From: an uncultured Candidatus Saccharibacteria bacterium
GTDB lineage: Bacteria; Patescibacteriota; Saccharimonadia; Saccharimonadales; Saccharimonadaceae
Reading direction: 5' to 3'
Length of the DNA stretch: 41,884 nt
Assembly: GCA_946415265.1 (NCBI GenBank)
Contig: CAMKRV010000005.1
Span: forward strand, 1-41,884
The position numbers and the translations under genes are program-made. Under the pieces are notes generated by a model. It was given only the letters and a program-made list of their open reading frames with translations, searched no databases and was not told the origin of the DNA. This document shows positions 11,316-30,669 of the stretch, one piece after another (the first letter of the stretch is position 1; each line of letters opens with the position of its first letter).

Positions 11316-11343
11316 TTCACAAATAGTTTTAGCATGATATAAT
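11316..11343 (+). promoter_or_regulatory. Promoter of leader RNA A / FISUMP gene A
   Basis: TTCACA, 16-nt spacer, TATAAT with an extended TGA. The first paired base of the leader RNA (11349) falls 5 nt after the -10, so the RNA 5' end should itself be in the closing stem P1. Confidence 0.65.
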
Positions 11344-11348
11344 TAAAA

Positions 11349-11575
11349 TGCAACATTCTAATTTAAAAGAACCAGAGGTTTTTATTAGCCTATGGGATAT
11401 ATGCACAATATAATTGGCATCGTAAGGTTTCCAATTTGCGCATACTATGGGTTATATAACTTTGGTTCACAAATTAGGATGTTGCACCCCTTGCGGTGCC
11501 ATTTTTGTTAATCCCCATTAATATAGTGGCACCACATGGGGGAGTAGTAGTAATCATATATAAGTGAGGTAAAAG
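11349..11575 (+). ncRNA. Structured leader RNA, copy A (novel cis-regulatory RNA candidate)
   Basis: Closing stem P1 pairs TGCAACATTCTAATTT (11349-11364) with AAATTAGGATGTTGCA (11471-11486), 16 bp with one G-U. Inside it P2 (AATTGG 11412-11417 / CCAATT 11431-11436) presents the loop CATCGTAAGGTTT. GGCATCGTAAGG (11416-11427) can pair over 12 bp with CCTTGCGGTGCC (11489-11500) just 3' of P1, followed by ATTTTTGT. A third option pairs GGTGCCA (11495-11501) with TGGCACC (11527-11533). GTGGC (11526-11530) can pair with GCCAC just after the start codon. AAGTGAGG serves as ribosome-binding site. Copies B and C keep this plan with different stem sequences. Confidence 0.75.
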
Positions 11576-13096
11576 ATGGGCCACAAAGTAAAACAATCAT
11601 TAATGAGTAGTAGAATAGATTTCTTCTACTATGCTTTCCGTAATGTATTGTTAGTTTCTGTTCCTCTTCTCGTTATCTCTACCTTTATCCTTGGCTTCAG
11701 TGTTTCTCATAGCTCTGCTACAAACTCTGGTTCTGGCTCAGACAATCTCACTATTACTATCTCTTCTGCTTGTACATTAAGTAGTGTGGTAGATAGTGAA
11801 CATAGTACTAATACTAATGTGGGTACTTATACCAGTGATATAGGTAAAACTACCATTACCACACTATGTAATGATGGTAATGGGTATAGTGTATATGCAA
11901 TAGGATATAGTAATAATGAAGAAGGTAATAATAAATTAATCAATTCTGAAAGACCTGAGTATAGTATAGATACAGGATTGAATGCTAGTGGTCTTACATC
12001 TGCTTGGGCCATGAAACTGAATAATATACCAGACGATCCTTCTCCTACTCCACCTACTATAGAAAGTGATTACAATAATATTTATGGTATAGTACCACCA
12101 TATTGGACTAAGGTAGCTAGTAGAGCTTCTGGTACTACAGATATGGCACAAGGGTCTAGTTTTACTACTACTTATGCAGTATATGCTAGTTCTTCCCAGT
12201 ATGCAGGTACTTATCAGGGGCAGGTGAAGTATTTGCTGACGCACCCTAGTTCAGATGTAAAACATTTCTTTATGCAGGATATTGCTAACTGGGCTAATGA
12301 ACAAATACCCAACATAGGAGATACTATACGGGCCGTAGATCAAAGAGATTATAAAGGCTATTATGTTACCAGGCTAGCAGACGGGCATATCTGGATGACA
12401 CAAAACTTAGATTTTGACATAGCAGCCAATACTGTGTTTAACTCCCAAACTACAGACTTAAATGTAGCTTATGATTCTAGTACTGGACAATATGCAGAAT
12501 ATAGTGATGGATATACTGAAAATAATGGTACCATTTACTGGGAGCCAGCTAGCACAGCTACTACTATAGACTTTACTGGCACTACTGTTACTGATTGGCA
12601 GAATAGTAATACTGCACCATATACTGCTAATAAGACAGACGATACTGGTACAGGACATAATTCACTAGGTAATTACTATAACTGGAGTGCAGCCATAGCT
12701 TCTAATGACTCTTCTTCATTAACACAAAATACAGTAAGTGATATATCTAAGAATCCTAAGAACTCTATTTGTCCTAAAGGTTGGAGGTTGCCTACTACAT
12801 CTAATCAATCCGGAGCATTATCTGGCTCTACTAATGAATTTGCGAGGTTGAATTATTTGTACAATAACAATAAGACTACCACAGATGCAGGGATAATCGC
12901 ATCCCCATTGTACTTTAATAATTCGGGGATCGTCCTCAATAGTACCCTTGCTATGGGCGAGGGCGTATACTGGTCAAGTACAAATAATTCTTCAGGAAGC
13001 GCATATTTCTTCGCACATAAACCAGATCAGGTTAAACCAAAAGACGACTGGCATAGATATATCGGTATTTCCATTCGTTGCGTGACTAGAGAGTAA
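11576..13096 (+). CDS. FISUMP-domain surface protein A
   Basis: 506 residues. An N-terminal cytoplasmic stretch (MGHKVKQSLMSSRIDFFYYAFRN) precedes a hydrophobic export segment (about 24-46). Next comes a beta-rich domain with SACTLSS, CNDGNGYSVYAIG and a closing AGTYQGQVKYLLTHPS (about 55-225); the same domain is in genes B and 38382. The C-terminal FISUMP domain (about 230-506) has YVTRLADGHIWMTQNLDFDI, GNYYNWSAAIAS, NSICPKGWRLPT, VYWSST and a terminal SIRCVTRE. FISUMP domains are related to the C-type lectin-like fold and are found on secreted proteins. No LPXTG motif is seen. The first ~110 nt are almost identical to gene B, while the last ~200 nt are unlike the AT-rich body in codon use. 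Confidence 0.88.
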   Translation: MGHKVKQSLMSSRIDFFYYAFRNVLLVSVPLLVISTFILGFSVSHSSATNSGSGSDNLTITISSACTLSSVVDSEHSTNTNVGTYTSDIGKTTITTLCNDGNGYSVYAIGYSNNEEGNNKLINSERPEYSIDTGLNASGLTSAWAMKLNNIPDDPSPTPPTIESDYNNIYGIVPPYWTKVASRASGTTDMAQGSSFTTTYAVYASSSQYAGTYQGQVKYLLTHPSSDVKHFFMQDIANWANEQIPNIGDTIRAVDQRDYKGYYVTRLADGHIWMTQNLDFDIAANTVFNSQTTDLNVAYDSSTGQYAEYSDGYTENNGTIYWEPASTATTIDFTGTTVTDWQNSNTAPYTANKTDDTGTGHNSLGNYYNWSAAIASNDSSSLTQNTVSDISKNPKNSICPKGWRLPTTSNQSGALSGSTNEFARLNYLYNNNKTTTDAGIIASPLYFNNSGIVLNSTLAMGEGVYWSSTNNSSGSAYFFAHKPDQVKPKDDWHRYIGISIRCVTRE

Positions 13097-21947: not shown

Positions 21948-21972
21948 GTTGCTTATAAAATGGCATTTATGG

Positions 21973-21978
21973 TACAAT
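21973..21978 (+). promoter_or_regulatory. Extended -10 promoter of leader RNA B
   Basis: TGG-TACAAT. The first P1 base of the leader (21984) is 5 nt downstream, as in copy A. Confidence 0.6.
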
Positions 21979-21983
21979 AAAAA

Positions 21984-22204
21984 TGCAACAATTAAATTTA
22001 TTTATCGCAATGCGCCAATATTTTTATATTGAGTATGTCAACAAAACGATAAACGGCACCGTAAGGAAATCCGACGTTTTGTTGGCCTATGCTAATAAAT
22101 AAGTTTGATTGTTGCACCCTTGCGGTGCCATTTTTGTTAATCCCCATTAATATAGTGGCACCACATGGGGGAGTTAGTAAAGCTAATTATAAGTGAGGTA
22201 AAAG
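21984..22204 (+). ncRNA. Structured leader RNA, copy B
   Basis: P1 is 21 bp: 21984-22004 with 22096-22116, including two G-U pairs. P1 position 8 is A-U here and U-A in copy A, a compensatory change. P2 pairs AACAAAACG (22040-22048) with CGTTTTGTT (22075-22083) and shows loop GG-CACCGTAAGGAAAT-CC. GGCACCGTAAGG (22055-22066) can form 12 bp with CCTTGCGGTGCC (22118-22129), followed by ATTTTTGT. Downstream GGTGCCA / TGGCACC and CCCCAT / ATGGGG options match copy A, and AAGTGAGG precedes the ATG at 22205. The P2 stem sequence differs completely from copies A and C while the loop is kept. Confidence 0.75.
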
Positions 22205-23764
22205 ATGGGCCACAAAGTAAAACAATCCTTAATGAGTAGTAGAATAGATTTCTTCTACTATGCTTTCCGTAATATATTGTTAGTTTCTGTTCCTCTTCTT
22301 GTGGTTTGTACTCTTATTCTTGGCCTTAGTGTTTCTCGCTCATCTGCGCGTATATCATCTAGTGATAATTTAGCTATTTCTGTTCCTAGTTCTTGTACTT
22401 TATCTAGTTCTGTAGATGAAGTTCATAGTGCTAGTATTATCAATGGTACTTATAGATCTAATATAGGAACCACTACACTATCTACCTTTTGTAATGATAA
22501 GAATGGTTATAGTGTTTATGCTATTGGTGATAGTTTTAATAGTGAAGGTAATAATACATTAGTTGGTAGTAATGGCAGTAATATAAGTAGTGGCACAGCT
22601 ACTTCAGGTGATACTTCTAACTGGGCTATGAAACTAGCTTTAAAAGCAGGTGATACTTCTACTACTCCACCTACTATCATTTCTCCATTCACTAATTATT
22701 CTACAGTACCTACTACTTGGACTAAAGTAGCTACTATACCATCTGGTACTACAGACATGGAAAAAGGATCATCCTTTACTACTACTTATACTACATATAT
22801 CTCTCCTACTCAAGCTGCAGGTACATACTTAGGGCAAGTCAAGTATCTACTTACTCATCCTTCAGCAGCAACTCCTACCAGTGCCTATATTATGCAGGAA
22901 GTAGCAAATTGGGAAGATGATTTATCTAGTCCTGGTGACAGTGTACAAGCTATAGATATTAGAGACGGCAAAGCATATTGGGTTACCAGGTTGGCAGATG
23001 GGCATATTTGGATGACACAGAACTTGGATTTTGATATAGACACCGCCAAAACTTATACTCATAACGATACGGACCTAGGCTGGGATCCAAATAGTTTTGA
23101 TAGTAATGCTACATGGAAACCAGATACCACTAATGGTAAATATAACCTACCAGTAAACGGTACTTCTGTTCCTGATTGGTCTAATCAAAATAACTATCCA
23201 TATTCTGCAGATCCAGGTGATGTATATTACTATACGTCTAATTCTGAAGCAAATGATATAAAATACAATTCACTATCTGAGTGTATAGCAGCAAATCATA
23301 CAGAAAAAGATTGTAAACGTTATCATGCTGGTAATTACTATAACTGGACTGCTGCTATAGCATCTAATAATTCTAGTAGTCTTACTACGCAGTACACTAA
23401 TGCTCCTAACTCTATCTGCCCAGCTGGCTGGCGATTGCCTATAGCTACTAATGCTGACCAATCCATTTATGAGTTTGGAGAAATGCTATATAGGCAAGGA
23501 ATAATAGGGAGTTCAGTGGATTATAAGTATACTACTAATGGGTTTAATAATATTCGTAAGGCTCCTTTATACTTAACTCGAGGGGGTTTTATAGATGGTA
23601 GTTCAATTATAAATAGTGGTTCCTATGGATCTTTACATGCAAGAACGACATATAATAATTCTGATTCTTATGGACTTATTTATGTCAAAACCGTCATCAG
23701 CATGCATAATTCATGGGATTTCTCTAAATCTTATGGAAAATTTATTCGCTGCCTGGCACAGTAA
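22205..23764 (+). CDS. FISUMP-domain surface protein B
   Basis: 519 residues with the same layout as A: N-terminal stretch and export segment (1-47, nearly identical), beta-rich domain (about 55-222, SSCTLSSSVDEVHS, CNDKNGYSVYAIG, AGTYLGQVKYLLTHPS), and FISUMP domain (about 228-519, YWVTRLADGHIWMTQNLDFDI, GNYYNWTAAIAS, NSICPAGWRLPI, terminal FIRCLAQ). A cysteine-containing insert before GNYYNW (SLSECIAANHTEKDCKRYH) is shared with protein C but not with A. The YWSST block is lost (HARTTYNNS at this place), so the C-terminal part has diverged more than in its paralogues. Preceded by leader RNA B with AAGTGAGG as ribosome-binding site. Confidence 0.88.
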   Translation: MGHKVKQSLMSSRIDFFYYAFRNILLVSVPLLVVCTLILGLSVSRSSARISSSDNLAISVPSSCTLSSSVDEVHSASIINGTYRSNIGTTTLSTFCNDKNGYSVYAIGDSFNSEGNNTLVGSNGSNISSGTATSGDTSNWAMKLALKAGDTSTTPPTIISPFTNYSTVPTTWTKVATIPSGTTDMEKGSSFTTTYTTYISPTQAAGTYLGQVKYLLTHPSAATPTSAYIMQEVANWEDDLSSPGDSVQAIDIRDGKAYWVTRLADGHIWMTQNLDFDIDTAKTYTHNDTDLGWDPNSFDSNATWKPDTTNGKYNLPVNGTSVPDWSNQNNYPYSADPGDVYYYTSNSEANDIKYNSLSECIAANHTEKDCKRYHAGNYYNWTAAIASNNSSSLTTQYTNAPNSICPAGWRLPIATNADQSIYEFGEMLYRQGIIGSSVDYKYTTNGFNNIRKAPLYLTRGGFIDGSSIINSGSYGSLHARTTYNNSDSYGLIYVKTVISMHNSWDFSKSYGKFIRCLAQ

Positions 23765-26878: not shown

Positions 26879-26884
26879 TATGAT
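26879..26884 (+). promoter_or_regulatory. Extended -10 promoter of leader RNA C
   Basis: TGG-TATGAT. P1 of the leader begins 4 nt later, as in the other copies. Upstream 26759-26878 holds no gene. Confidence 0.55.
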
Positions 26885-26888
26885 TAAA

Positions 26889-27101
26889 GTGCAAACATTC
26901 AGTAATATTAAAAAATGCGTCAAACATTTTTTAGGTAAATTATCCAACCGCAGAATTGGCATCGTAAGGTGTCCACGGTTGGGTATTTGACGCAATTGCT
27001 GGATGTTTGCACCCTTGCGGTGCCATTTTTGTATACGCCTTTTCATATACTACAAAGATGGCACCGCATCCTAAGTGAAAACTTTAAGTGAGGTATATAG
27101 G
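26889..27101 (+). ncRNA. Structured leader RNA, copy C, with start-codon pairing option
   Basis: P1: 18 bp, 26889-26906 with 26995-27012 (two G-U). P2: TATCCAACCG (26941-26950) with CGGTTGGGTA (26976-26985), loop GG-CATCGTAAGGTGT-CC. GGCATCGTAAGG (26958-26969) can pair with CCTTGCGGTGCC (27013-27024). Downstream, GCGGTGCCAT (27017-27026) can pair perfectly with ATGGCACCGC (27058-27067). CCGCATCCTA (27064-27073), which shares CCGC with that stem, can pair perfectly over 10 bp with TAGGATGCGG (27098-27107), which contains the start codon and encloses the ribosome-binding site AAGTGAGG. The two downstream stems are mutually exclusive. Confidence 0.78.
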
Positions 27102-28574
27102 ATGCGGAAAATATACATATTATATATAGCAACAATTAGTATATTAAGTTTAGTATATATTAACAATACTTCTGCCTTAGACTATTCTAGTAATGTAGGA
27201 GTAGGGTTTACCTTTAATCCTGCATTATCTATTAGTCTTAGTTCTAATGACTTAGTTATTCCTAATCTAGTTCCTGGTAGCATGGAAGATAGTAATAGTA
27301 TTAATGTAAGTGTTGCTACTAATGCAGCGTATGGGTATACATTGTCTGCTAATGTTAATGATGAGAATTTAGTACATAGTAATAATATAGATACATTCAG
27401 TAGTATAGCTACTAATGCAGGTCTAGCTAGTTTAGATGATAGTGAAGATAGTAATATATGGGGATACTCTACTTCATTAGACAGTGGTGCTACTTGGTCT
27501 AATTATAATGGCTTATCTAGCAGTAATAGTACTACGCTATTAGACGCTAATAGTAATGTTTCTAGTAACCTAGACTTTAAGATAGCTGCTAGAGCATCTA
27601 GTACTCAGGCTAGTGGAACATATACTGGAGTGATTAACTTCATTGCAGTATCCAATGTAGCACCAATGAGTTTATTAGATTCCTTTATAGCTTCAGGAGC
27701 AGAACAATTAAATGGATACTTCAAAATGCAGGATATGACACATGATATATGTAATAACGTAGATGTAGAAGAATCAGAGCTACAACTTATAGACGTAAGA
27801 GACAACAAGATTTATTGGGTAGCCAAACTCAAAGATGGCAATTGTTGGATGACACAGAATCTTGATCTAGATTTATCGCATGAGGTGGCTTTGACGTCAG
27901 AGAACACTAACCTCAAAACCTATGCTCAAACTGGACCATATTCGCCAGAAGGGGGCTACTACCAAGATGACACAAACACTATCTACTGGGCGCCAATTAG
28001 GAGCACTACTTCCTCGCTCAATAGAAATAATTTCCCAGCAACTGTCGATGCTAACAATACCCCATATTCATATGACCCAAGCTCATTATACTACTACTAT
28101 GGGCCACCTTCTAATCCTGCAAACCACACCTTTTACTCATTAAGTACCTGCCAAAACGAAAACTATCCCAATTGTGAACGTTATCCAGCCGGCAATTATT
28201 ACAACTGGTCCGCCGCAGTAGCTAGTGATAATACCATTGGTTTTACAGAAACTAACACCTATGCCGATAATTCCATTTGTCCTAATAATTGGAAATTGCC
28301 AACATCCAACAACTTTAATACTTTAACTAAAACTTATGATATAAACAATAAGAATTCTTTAGACCTACAACTTAGCCCTCTCTGGTTTGTTCGATCTGGG
28401 TATATTCAAAATGGAGGCTCATCACCCTCTGGCACCTATGGTTGCTATTGGACCAATATATCAAGCAGCGATGGCTCTTCGGCCCAAAACTTATCATTCT
28501 TCAACGGTTTTATTAGCTCAACCAATACATACCAACGGAATCTTGGCCTTACAGTGCGCTGCATAACTGAGTAA
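27102..28574 (+). CDS. FISUMP-domain surface protein C
   Basis: 490 residues. The start is the ATG at 27102 (MRKIYILYI), behind AAGTGAGG; the ORF-track start is an upstream GTG inside the leader. A normal signal peptide (about 1-26, ending NNTSA) replaces the longer anchor of A and B. The beta-rich N-terminal domain (about 30-190) is a different family member, with FTFNPALSISLSSNDLVI, AAYGYTLSANV and a closing ASGTYTGVINFIAV. The FISUMP domain follows (about 200-490: IYWVAKLKDGNCWMTQNLDLDL, GNYYNWSAAVAS, NSICPNNWKLPT, CYWTNI, terminal LTVRCITE). Codon use changes near 27880 from AT-rich AGT/AAT/GTA to C-ending codons, which suggests a mosaic gene. Confidence 0.88.
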   Translation: MRKIYILYIATISILSLVYINNTSALDYSSNVGVGFTFNPALSISLSSNDLVIPNLVPGSMEDSNSINVSVATNAAYGYTLSANVNDENLVHSNNIDTFSSIATNAGLASLDDSEDSNIWGYSTSLDSGATWSNYNGLSSSNSTTLLDANSNVSSNLDFKIAARASSTQASGTYTGVINFIAVSNVAPMSLLDSFIASGAEQLNGYFKMQDMTHDICNNVDVEESELQLIDVRDNKIYWVAKLKDGNCWMTQNLDLDLSHEVALTSENTNLKTYAQTGPYSPEGGYYQDDTNTIYWAPIRSTTSSLNRNNFPATVDANNTPYSYDPSSLYYYYGPPSNPANHTFYSLSTCQNENYPNCERYPAGNYYNWSAAVASDNTIGFTETNTYADNSICPNNWKLPTSNNFNTLTKTYDINNKNSLDLQLSPLWFVRSGYIQNGGSSPSGTYGCYWTNISSSDGSSAQNLSFFNGFISSTNTYQRNLGLTVRCITE

Positions 28575-28657
28575 TAATAGTAGCCGTATATCAAATAATT
28601 CTCTGAGCTTTAAAACCCTATTTTTGAAGTTTTTATAAAAATATTCGAAAAAGATTA

Positions 28658-28684
28658 TTAGCACACTTGACAACCGAGTGCCAA
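28658..28684. promoter_or_regulatory. CIRCE operator 1 (imperfect), overlapping the dnaK promoter
   Basis: TTAGCACAC-N9-GAGTGCCAA. The consensus is TTAGCACTC-N9-GAGTGCTAA. The 9-nt spacer begins with the -35 box TTGACA, so HrcA bound here would cover the promoter. Confidence 0.7.
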
Positions 28685-28695
28685 TGCGCTACAAT
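28667..28695 (+). promoter_or_regulatory. Consensus sigma70 promoter of dnaK
   Basis: TTGACA, 17-nt spacer, TACAAT. It lies between and within the two CIRCE elements. Start expected near 28702. Confidence 0.8.
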
Positions 28696-28704
28696 AGAGG
28701 AAGA

Positions 28705-28731
28705 TTAGCACTCGCCACGCACGAGTGCCAG
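28705..28731. promoter_or_regulatory. CIRCE operator 2
   Basis: TTAGCACTC-N9-GAGTGCCAG: the left half is a perfect match, the right half differs at two positions. It covers the start point and early leader. HrcA is the expected repressor; its gene is not in the window. Confidence 0.88.
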
Positions 28732-28779: not shown

Positions 28780-30669
28780 ATGAGCAAAATTATCGGTATC
28801 GACCTCGGCACCACCAACTCGGCATTTGCTTACATGGTGGCCGGCAAACCAGAAGTTATTACCAATAGTGAGGGTGATCGCACTACTCCATCTGTAGTAG
28901 CTGTCACCAAAAAAGGCGAGCGTTTGGTGGGTAAAGTTGCTCAACGCCAGCGCGTTACCAACCCAAAGAATACCATTTATGGCATCAAGCGTTTAATCGG
29001 CCGCAAATTCACCGACAAAGAAGTAGAGCGCGATAAGGAAATCAGCCCTTACAAAATCGTGAAAAAGGGCAACGGCGTAGCTGTAGAAATGGACGGCAAA
29101 GAATACACACCAGAAGAAATCAGCGCTATGATTCTTAGCAAAATCAAAGCTGATGCCGAAGCTTTCCTTGGCGAAAAGGTCACCGAAGCCATCATCACTG
29201 TGCCAGCCTATTTCGACGATTCTCAACGCCAAGCTACCAAAGACGCTGGCAAAATCGCTGGCCTCGAAGTCAAGCGTATTATCAACGAACCTACCGCAGC
29301 CGCTCTAGCCTATGGTCTAGAAGGCAAAAAAGACGAGAAAATCGCCGTCTTCGATCTTGGTGGCGGTACCTTCGATGTAAGCATCATGGATATCGGCGAC
29401 GGTGTGTTTGAAGTACTTTCCACCAACGGCGATACTCACCTAGGTGGTGAAGATTTTGACAACATTATCGTTAACTTCCTAGTAGATGAATTCAAGAAAG
29501 AATCCGGCATTGATATCAAGGGTGACGCTGCCGCTATGCAACGCGTCAAAGACGAAGCTGAAAAGGCTAAAAAAGAGCTATCTTCAAGCACTTCTACCGA
29601 TATCAATCTTCCCTTCCTTTCTGCCGATGCCGATGGACCAAAACATTTTGAATATACGCTCACTCGTGCCAAACTCGAAGAATTGGTTGCACCACTTCTA
29701 GATCGCCTAGCCGAGCCAGTAGAAAAGGCTCTAAAAGACGCCAAGCTCAAAACTTCTGATATCGACGAAATCGTGATGGTCGGCGGCATGACTCGTATGC
29801 CAGCCGTAGTAGAAAAAGTTAAAGCCATCTTCGGCAAAGACCCAATGCAGGGCGTCAACCCAGACGAAGTTGTAGCCGTAGGTGCAGCTATCCAGGGCGG
29901 CGTACTTCAAGGCGATGTCAAGGATGTATTGCTCCTAGACGTTACTCCACTTACTCTTGGTATCGAAACCATGGGCGGCGTTCGCACTCCATTGATTGAG
30001 CGTAACACTACTATCCCTACATCTAAGTCCGAAGTGTTCTCTACCGCCAGCGATAATCAGCCTCAGGTAGAAATTCACGTCCTCCAAGGCGAACGCGAAT
30101 TCGCTAAAGACAACAAATCCCTCGGCCGCTTTATCCTAGACGGTATCGCACCAGCTCCACGCGGCGTGCCACAGATTGAAGTTACCTTCAATCTAGACGC
30201 TAACGGCATCTTAAACGTTACTGCCAAAGACAAAGGTACCGGCAAAGAGCAATCTATCACCATCCAAAACTCCGGCAACATGAGCAAAGAAGATATCGAA
30301 AAAGCTCAAAAAGAAGCCGAACTTCACGCTGAAGAGGATAAAAAGAAAAAGGAAGGCATCGACGCTAAAAACCACCTAGAAAACACCATTTATCAAGCCG
30401 AAAAAATGCCCGATGAATACAAGGATAAAATTAGCGACGAAGATAAAGAGACTATCAAAAAAGCTGTGGAAGAGGCCCGCAAGGTACTAAACGACACCGA
30501 CGCCGACAAAGAAAAGTACGAAGAAGCCATCAAAGAGCTCTCCGATAAAATCATGCCTATCGGCGCAAAAATGTATCAAGCTTCTGCCGACGATGCTAAA
30601 TCAGAAGACAAAAAAGACGACAAGTCTTCCGACGACGAACCCGTCGAAGGCGAAGTAGTAGATAAATAA
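28780..30669 (+). CDS. dnaK: Chaperone DnaK (Hsp70)
   Basis: 629 residues. ATP-dependent chaperone acting with DnaJ and GrpE. ATPase domain (about 1-380): [71 protein letters not shown]. Substrate domain (about 390-500): [16 protein letters not shown], then a helical lid and an acidic tail ending EGEVVDK. AAAGGAGG 6 nt before the ATG is one of the best ribosome-binding sites here. Controlled by two CIRCE operators. Encoded alone: grpE, dnaJ and hrcA are not adjacent, and a strong terminator follows. Confidence 0.98.

Follow-up and report, generated by a model that had tools for sequence, protein, structure and literature searches.

The leader of gene C is one member of a family of folded 5' leaders, about 37 of which are present in a 0.77-Mb Saccharibacteria genome. 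We propose, with a probability of about one half, that these leaders are attenuators of surface-protein genes, in which pairing of an apical loop (L2) with a strand just 3' of the hairpin (T) would lead to termination, in competition with the hairpin of L2 itself and with a downstream hairpin (P4), and to which sequestration of the start codon would be added in a type-dependent way. Leader C and two further copies, A and B (Table 1), lie in the window, that is, the whole analysed stretch of 41,884 nucleotides from an uncultured Candidatus Saccharibacteria bacterium. A preliminary description of leader C had included neither termination nor a family of this size; the U-tract directly after T in all leaders suggests termination, and the copies number about 37 per genome.

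Table 1. Positions of the leader features in the window
Feature	Position	Strand	Basis
-10 box TATGAT, leader C	26879-26884	+	sequence
P1 5' strand, partner 26995-27012	26889-26906	+	fold of 26880-27120; arm-swap control across leaders
Upper hairpin (helices above P1) bearing loop L2	26916-26994	+	fold of 26880-27120
L2 GGCAUCGUAAGG, conserved apical loop, usually GNRA-type; partner of T	26958-26969	+	pairing counts; covariation
P1 3' strand	26995-27012	+	fold of 26880-27120
T strand CCUUGCGGUGCC; partner upstream L2, downstream P4 3' strand	27013-27024	+	37 exact genome copies
U-tract (AUUUUUGU) immediately 3' of T, terminator-like	27026-27030	+	AUUUUU near-universal in distinct leaders
P4 hairpin, 27016-27026 with 27058-27068; predicted form 27019-27033 with 27051-27065	27016-27068	+	
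Start-codon stem, 27064-27073 with 27098-27107	27064-27107	+	full length not conserved in type-2 homologues
Shine-Dalgarno GAGG within AAGUGAGGU	27090-27093	+	sequence
Gene C, secreted FISUMP-domain protein, 490 aa	27102-28574	+	TIGR02145, 56.2 bits, E 6.7e-15
Leader A (L2 11416-11427, T 11489-11500), before FISUMP gene 11576-13096	11339-11575	+	
Leader B (L2 22055-22066, T 22118-22129), before FISUMP gene 22205-23764	21970-22204	+	

Common anatomy of the leaders

The leaders share a -10 box, a long hairpin with a sequence specific to each locus, L2 (GGCRYCGYRAGG), T (CCUUGCGGUGCC) and then AUUUUUGU; hairpin, L2, T and U-tract are present in every leader. In 120 of 141 distinct leaders, a -10 hexamer, mostly TATAAT or TACAAT, ends 3 to 6 nt 5' of P1, which places the probable start of the RNA at the stem base; the transcript of leader C probably begins at the first base of P1 or adjacent to it. 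The arms of the hairpin comprise about 40 bp on average, with the unpaired bases chiefly on the 5' strand (24.5 versus 4.6). When arms were exchanged between leaders, folding weakened from -52.0 kcal/mol for a leader's own arms to -30.3 kcal/mol, and pairing of the right arm to the left fell from 79% to 23%. For leader C (26880-27120) the predicted fold has an energy of -90.2 kcal/mol and a z-score of -8.7. L2 usually contains a GNRA-type tetraloop, and A-rich bases 5' of it lengthen the L2:T helix into the U-tract. The fifth U of this tract and the G/U that follows are near-universal among distinct leaders; TTTT belonged to the pattern used to search for leaders, but the fifth U and the next G/U did not.

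A run of four to six U residues is found on the 5' strand of the hairpin in 133 of 140 leaders, where chance would give about half. It mostly lies 27 to 38 nt from the RNA start, as a U-rich bulge at about +34 (26927-26932 in leader C), and is perhaps a pause or cleavage site. Among five leaders that depart from the usual layout (L048, L104; L056, L097, L003), some have no ORF near P4 and others carry an insert (GTACTTTTGC..TAATTCATTATG) between P4 and the gene.

The long hairpin could also be mainly a stability or processing element at the 5' end of the mRNA, with L2:T as a tertiary contact of the fold and with constitutive expression. The stable double-stranded arms in every leader, the RNA 5' end at the stem base and the U-rich bulge would all fit such an element, but neither the near-universal U-tract after T nor the competing downstream complement of T in P4 is explained by it, and we regard it as unlikely.

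Pairing of L2 with T

T of leader C is complementary to its L2 at 12 of 12 positions. The same is true for 127 of 145 distinct leaders, whereas the best pairing with a shuffled T was 10. Over 32 distinct L2+T rows, 96.2% of the cells are paired, compared to 32 to 53% when one strand is slid along the other. Five pairs have changed on both sides (1.8 in shuffles, with 1 of 500 shuffles reaching 5). These compensatory changes were found between species; examples are A-U replaced by G-C or by U-A at one position, and G-C replaced by A-U at each of two more. Judged from the aligned sequences, L2:T is a real pairing that is both conserved and covarying.

In the 773-kb genome (G000), T occurs 37 times as an exact copy and the strict L2 plus T pattern is found at 18 + 18 places. 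Every T copy inspected sits in a leader, in which L2 precedes it by about 60 nt. No free-standing partner RNA with the L2/T sequence was found in this genome: matches to L2 were located upstream of T or were the antisense of T itself, and the inspected copies of T were all in leaders. It has also been considered that the leaders act in trans, in that short RNAs ending at the U-tract would carry L2, capture T of other leaders and so couple the multigene family. L2 and T are nearly constant over about 37 loci, although pairing in cis alone would permit drift, the arms are locus-specific while L2 and T are constant, and the geometry in cis is awkward. The constancy may, however, stem from gene conversion in the downstream part or from binding by one protein, and we consider action in trans very improbable.

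P4 and the start codon

P4, in which T pairs with a downstream strand, is a real pairing as well, with a mean z-score of -4.6 over 64 distinct downstream regions, far stronger than in shuffles. L2:T and P4 have similar mean strengths (-24.2 and -21.2 kcal/mol, respectively), which fits the need of a switch; in leader C, P4 is the stronger of the two (-31.2 versus -22.2 kcal/mol). In the type-5 leaders (G014 and G041), the downstream strand, inspected by eye, appears to be paired to the P1 3' strand and not to T.

The preliminary description had claimed that 27017-27026 pairs with 27058-27067 and that 27064-27073 pairs with 27098-27107, with the AUG inside the second stem. Both pairings are present: the first, which is P4, extends to 11 bp (27016-27026 with 27058-27068), and the second has the full 10 bp. 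A single perfect inverted repeat of this kind appeared in 13 of 2000 dinucleotide shuffles of 26999-27125, and two together appeared in none. The weaker GUGGC/GCCAC pairing described for copies A and B was also found. Calling the two stems mutually exclusive goes too far, as their overlap is limited to four or five bases (27064-27068), and both fit into the minimum-free-energy fold, each slightly shortened. Because so few bases are competed for, the AUG of gene C at 27102, which lies inside the start-codon stem, is predicted to be buried either way (unpaired 0.09 when T is free, 0.00 when it is captured). Of the four-strand relay, the bistable layout of L2, T, the P4 3' strand and the start region is supported; the opening of the start in leader C is not.

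The homologues of type 2, to which leader C belongs, give a mixed picture. Conservation does not extend over all 10 bp of the start stem, as 11 of 18 type-2 leaders have CCGCAACC in place of CCGCAUCC, facing GGAUGCGG-like starts, with a mismatch at the A of AUG. Its core, CCGCA/UGCGG, is kept in 17 of the 18 and, being invariant, provides no evidence from covariation. All 18 type-2 genes have CGG as codon 2, a codon that makes up 16% of the arginine codons in the window, and this is suggestive only as support for the start stem. Pairing of the start region recurs in some other leader types (for example, AUGGCCU/AGGUCAU, AUGACC/GGUCAU and CGUGAGG/CCUCGCG) and is absent from the commonest. Upon capture of T, the predicted unpaired value of the AUG changes from 0.42 to 0.26 in type 2, from 0.54 to 0.49 in type 3 and from 0.42 to 0.30 in type 4, and in type 1, the commonest, from 0.55 to 0.61, so there is no closing.

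These data bear directly on a purely translational relay, in which L2 would take T, P4 would open and its 3' strand would pair with the start region and block the ribosome. Start-region pairing beats shuffles in unrelated types (z-scores of -3.5 for C, -4.8 for L078, -3.3 for L013, -2.9 for L181 and L202, and -2.5 for L012 and L140), but the mean z-score over 64 leaders is only -0.9. Blocking T lowers the mean accessibility from Shine-Dalgarno to AUG from 0.52 to 0.48 over 64 leaders (P = 0.0016, an optimistic value because the leaders are related), with the strongest closing in type 3 (11 of 12 leaders). The constant CGG of the type-2 genes would fit such a relay, whereas leader C, closed in both states, and type 1, which does not close, argue against it, and the constant U-tract after T would have no explanation. 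We regard a switch at the level of translation alone as rather unlikely. Burial of the start codon in leader C, the step on which the preliminary description had laid stress, seems to be the least secure part of the proposed switch.

Proposed mechanism

As every leader has the hairpin, L2, T and the U-tract, transcription attenuation via L2:T is the most economical function. An intrinsic terminator is a GC-rich helix that ends at a U-tract, and L2:T, with 12 conserved and covarying base pairs followed by AUUUUUGU, has this form. Termination, the direction of control and its trigger are what we infer from this arrangement. Transcription would begin at the base of the long hairpin, and L2 would then either form its own GNRA-type mini-hairpin or pair over 12 to 15 bp with T, which lies just 3' of the hairpin and just 5' of the tract of five U residues. 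L2:T together with the U-tract would act as an intrinsic terminator and turn the gene off. If L2 were occupied, for example because an RNA-binding protein sits on the apical hairpin, the polymerase would read through, P4 would subsequently take up T and the gene would be expressed. In some leader types, the P4 3' strand, once freed, might also pair with the start region, resulting in a second, translational lock in the off state.

Several points count against attenuation. P4 can form only once the U-tract has been transcribed, and hence could not by itself block termination; it is also stronger than L2:T in leader C, and in the type-5 leaders the downstream strand appears to pair elsewhere than with T. 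No NusG paralogue and no antiterminator of the LicT/BglG type was found in the genomes searched. Moreover, L2 would be out of reach of T in cis if P1/P2 form a straight rod of about 40 bp; either the hairpin must bend at the bulges on its 5' side, or L2:T must form before P1 closes, or the pairing must take place in trans. The folding values refer to secondary structure only and ignore the kinetics of transcription and the energies of pseudoknots.

Comparison with known systems

The leaders resemble known transcription-attenuator leaders with a terminator and an antiterminator in that one strand has alternative pairings, a GC-rich helix runs up to a U-tract and the element lies between promoter and gene. 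They differ in that the 5' strand of the putative terminator lies some 50 nt upstream, within the apical loop that caps a long hairpin; in addition, neither a leader peptide nor a ligand domain was recognised, and there are tens of copies per genome. In antitermination of the RAT/LicT-BglG-SacY type, a conserved small RNA hairpin likewise shares bases with the 5' strand of the potential terminator, but the RNA-binding domain of LicT/BglG proteins (CAT_RBD, PF03123) was not found in any of the 10 genomes of the genus that were searched, and this type of control was rejected. Control by LoaP was rejected as well, as all ten genomes tested (among them G000, 83% complete, and G056, 98%) have one NusG each and no LoaP/RfaH-type paralogue. 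In pseudoknot-platform riboswitches, a loop also pairs with a 3' tail that overlaps the expression platform; unlike these, the leaders have no conserved core for a ligand pocket, as the arms vary freely and conservation is confined to L2 and T.

Searches with the Rfam 15 families, which include the T-box and riboswitches, gave only tRNAs above the gathering threshold in the window and nothing in eight related loci, and the matches below that threshold were at chance level (miRNA, snoRNA and sRNA). A known riboswitch was rejected on this basis. By eye, UGGCACCGC is similar to a portion of the T-box sequence, but it receives no score from the covariance models, and the gene is not an amino acid gene. 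The leader family is absent from Rfam, and the titles and abstracts of the literature searched yielded no description of it.

Apparent gene exchange behind the hairpins

Nine pairs of loci have hairpins that are 80% or more identical next to T. In six of these, the hairpin is 95 to 100% identical over about 125 nt and the flanks 90 to 100%, and in five of the six the downstream 400 nt are only 66 to 84% identical or can barely be aligned. Pairs from different species with nearly identical hairpins and different FISUMP genes are L003/L086, L006/L082, L054/L167, L087/L204 and L091/L159. The reverse is also seen: a close homologue of gene C in G056 (L177) shares the type-2 downstream part of the leader but is preceded by an unrelated hairpin, and two other gene pairs, 91 to 94% identical, have unlike hairpins. 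A hypervariable hairpin is ruled out, as orthologous hairpins are 95 to 100% identical between species. From these comparisons of sequence, the hairpin differences between paralogues are old and the downstream part has been homogenised. The hairpin loci appear to stay fixed while the genes behind them are exchanged, possibly through recombination inside the conserved leader, and for some pairs fast divergence of the gene alone may be the alternative. One could go further and regard the roughly 37 leaders with a single L2/T code as a genome-wide RNA circuit, in which the leaders or one dedicated factor would choose the surface proteins and genes would be swapped behind fixed leader loci, but we think this improbable.

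Distribution and meaning

Related species have 36 copies (G056 and G318) or fewer (G308 and G005), and elsewhere there are single copies or none. The strict motif was found in 1 of 143 sampled genera of the order and in 1 of 61 of the family. The named records that bear the leader are nearly all Candidatus Saccharibacteria from the gut of cattle, goat and sheep, together with metagenome-assembled genomes without a host in the title. Contigs from rabbit gut titled Clostridia or Oscillospiraceae (L136, L140, L158, L184 and L188) carry the same leader, which may be due to mislabelling, mis-binning or transfer. A match in Phytobacter (L166) is a chance terminator without L2. Five FISUMP genes with a callable start in species of the genus that lack the leader (G003, G006 and G007) did not have the same leader with other sequences, in a check in which a start could be called for half of the loci. 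One such species (G003) has a FISUMP-type gene with a degenerate T/P4-like remnant (CCTCTTGCGGTGCCATTCTTT ... GGTGGCATCGCAG; L267). Nearly all of the genomes are metagenome assemblies, and many contigs end in leader repeats. The leader types, the thresholds for redundancy and the choice of regions for comparison were fixed after the sequences had been seen, and the z-scores and P values given here are descriptive rather than confirmatory.

In the window, two repeats (TTAGCAC...GAGTGCCA) at 28657-28730 lie upstream of a 629-aa ORF at 28780; the repeats resemble CIRCE (HrcA) operators, and the first residues of the ORF, MSKIIGI, resemble those of DnaK.

Most of the downstream proteins tested carry a FISUMP domain (TIGR02145 or its Pfam counterpart). 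The protein at L158:929-2335 has a weak match, below the cut-off (E = 1.2e-4), to the NCBIfam family "Pam pilus system pilin subunit", hinting that some of the proteins under putative control of the leaders may be pilus-related. If the proposed attenuation holds, one undescribed RNA motif would control tens of secreted FISUMP genes within a genome of 0.77 Mb. The Saccharibacteria are minute bacteria with strongly reduced genomes, and very little of their regulation is known. The code of L2 and T is open to cell-free transcription tests without the need to culture the organism, and the leader family offers a tangible starting point for asking how these bacteria might select the proteins that they display.
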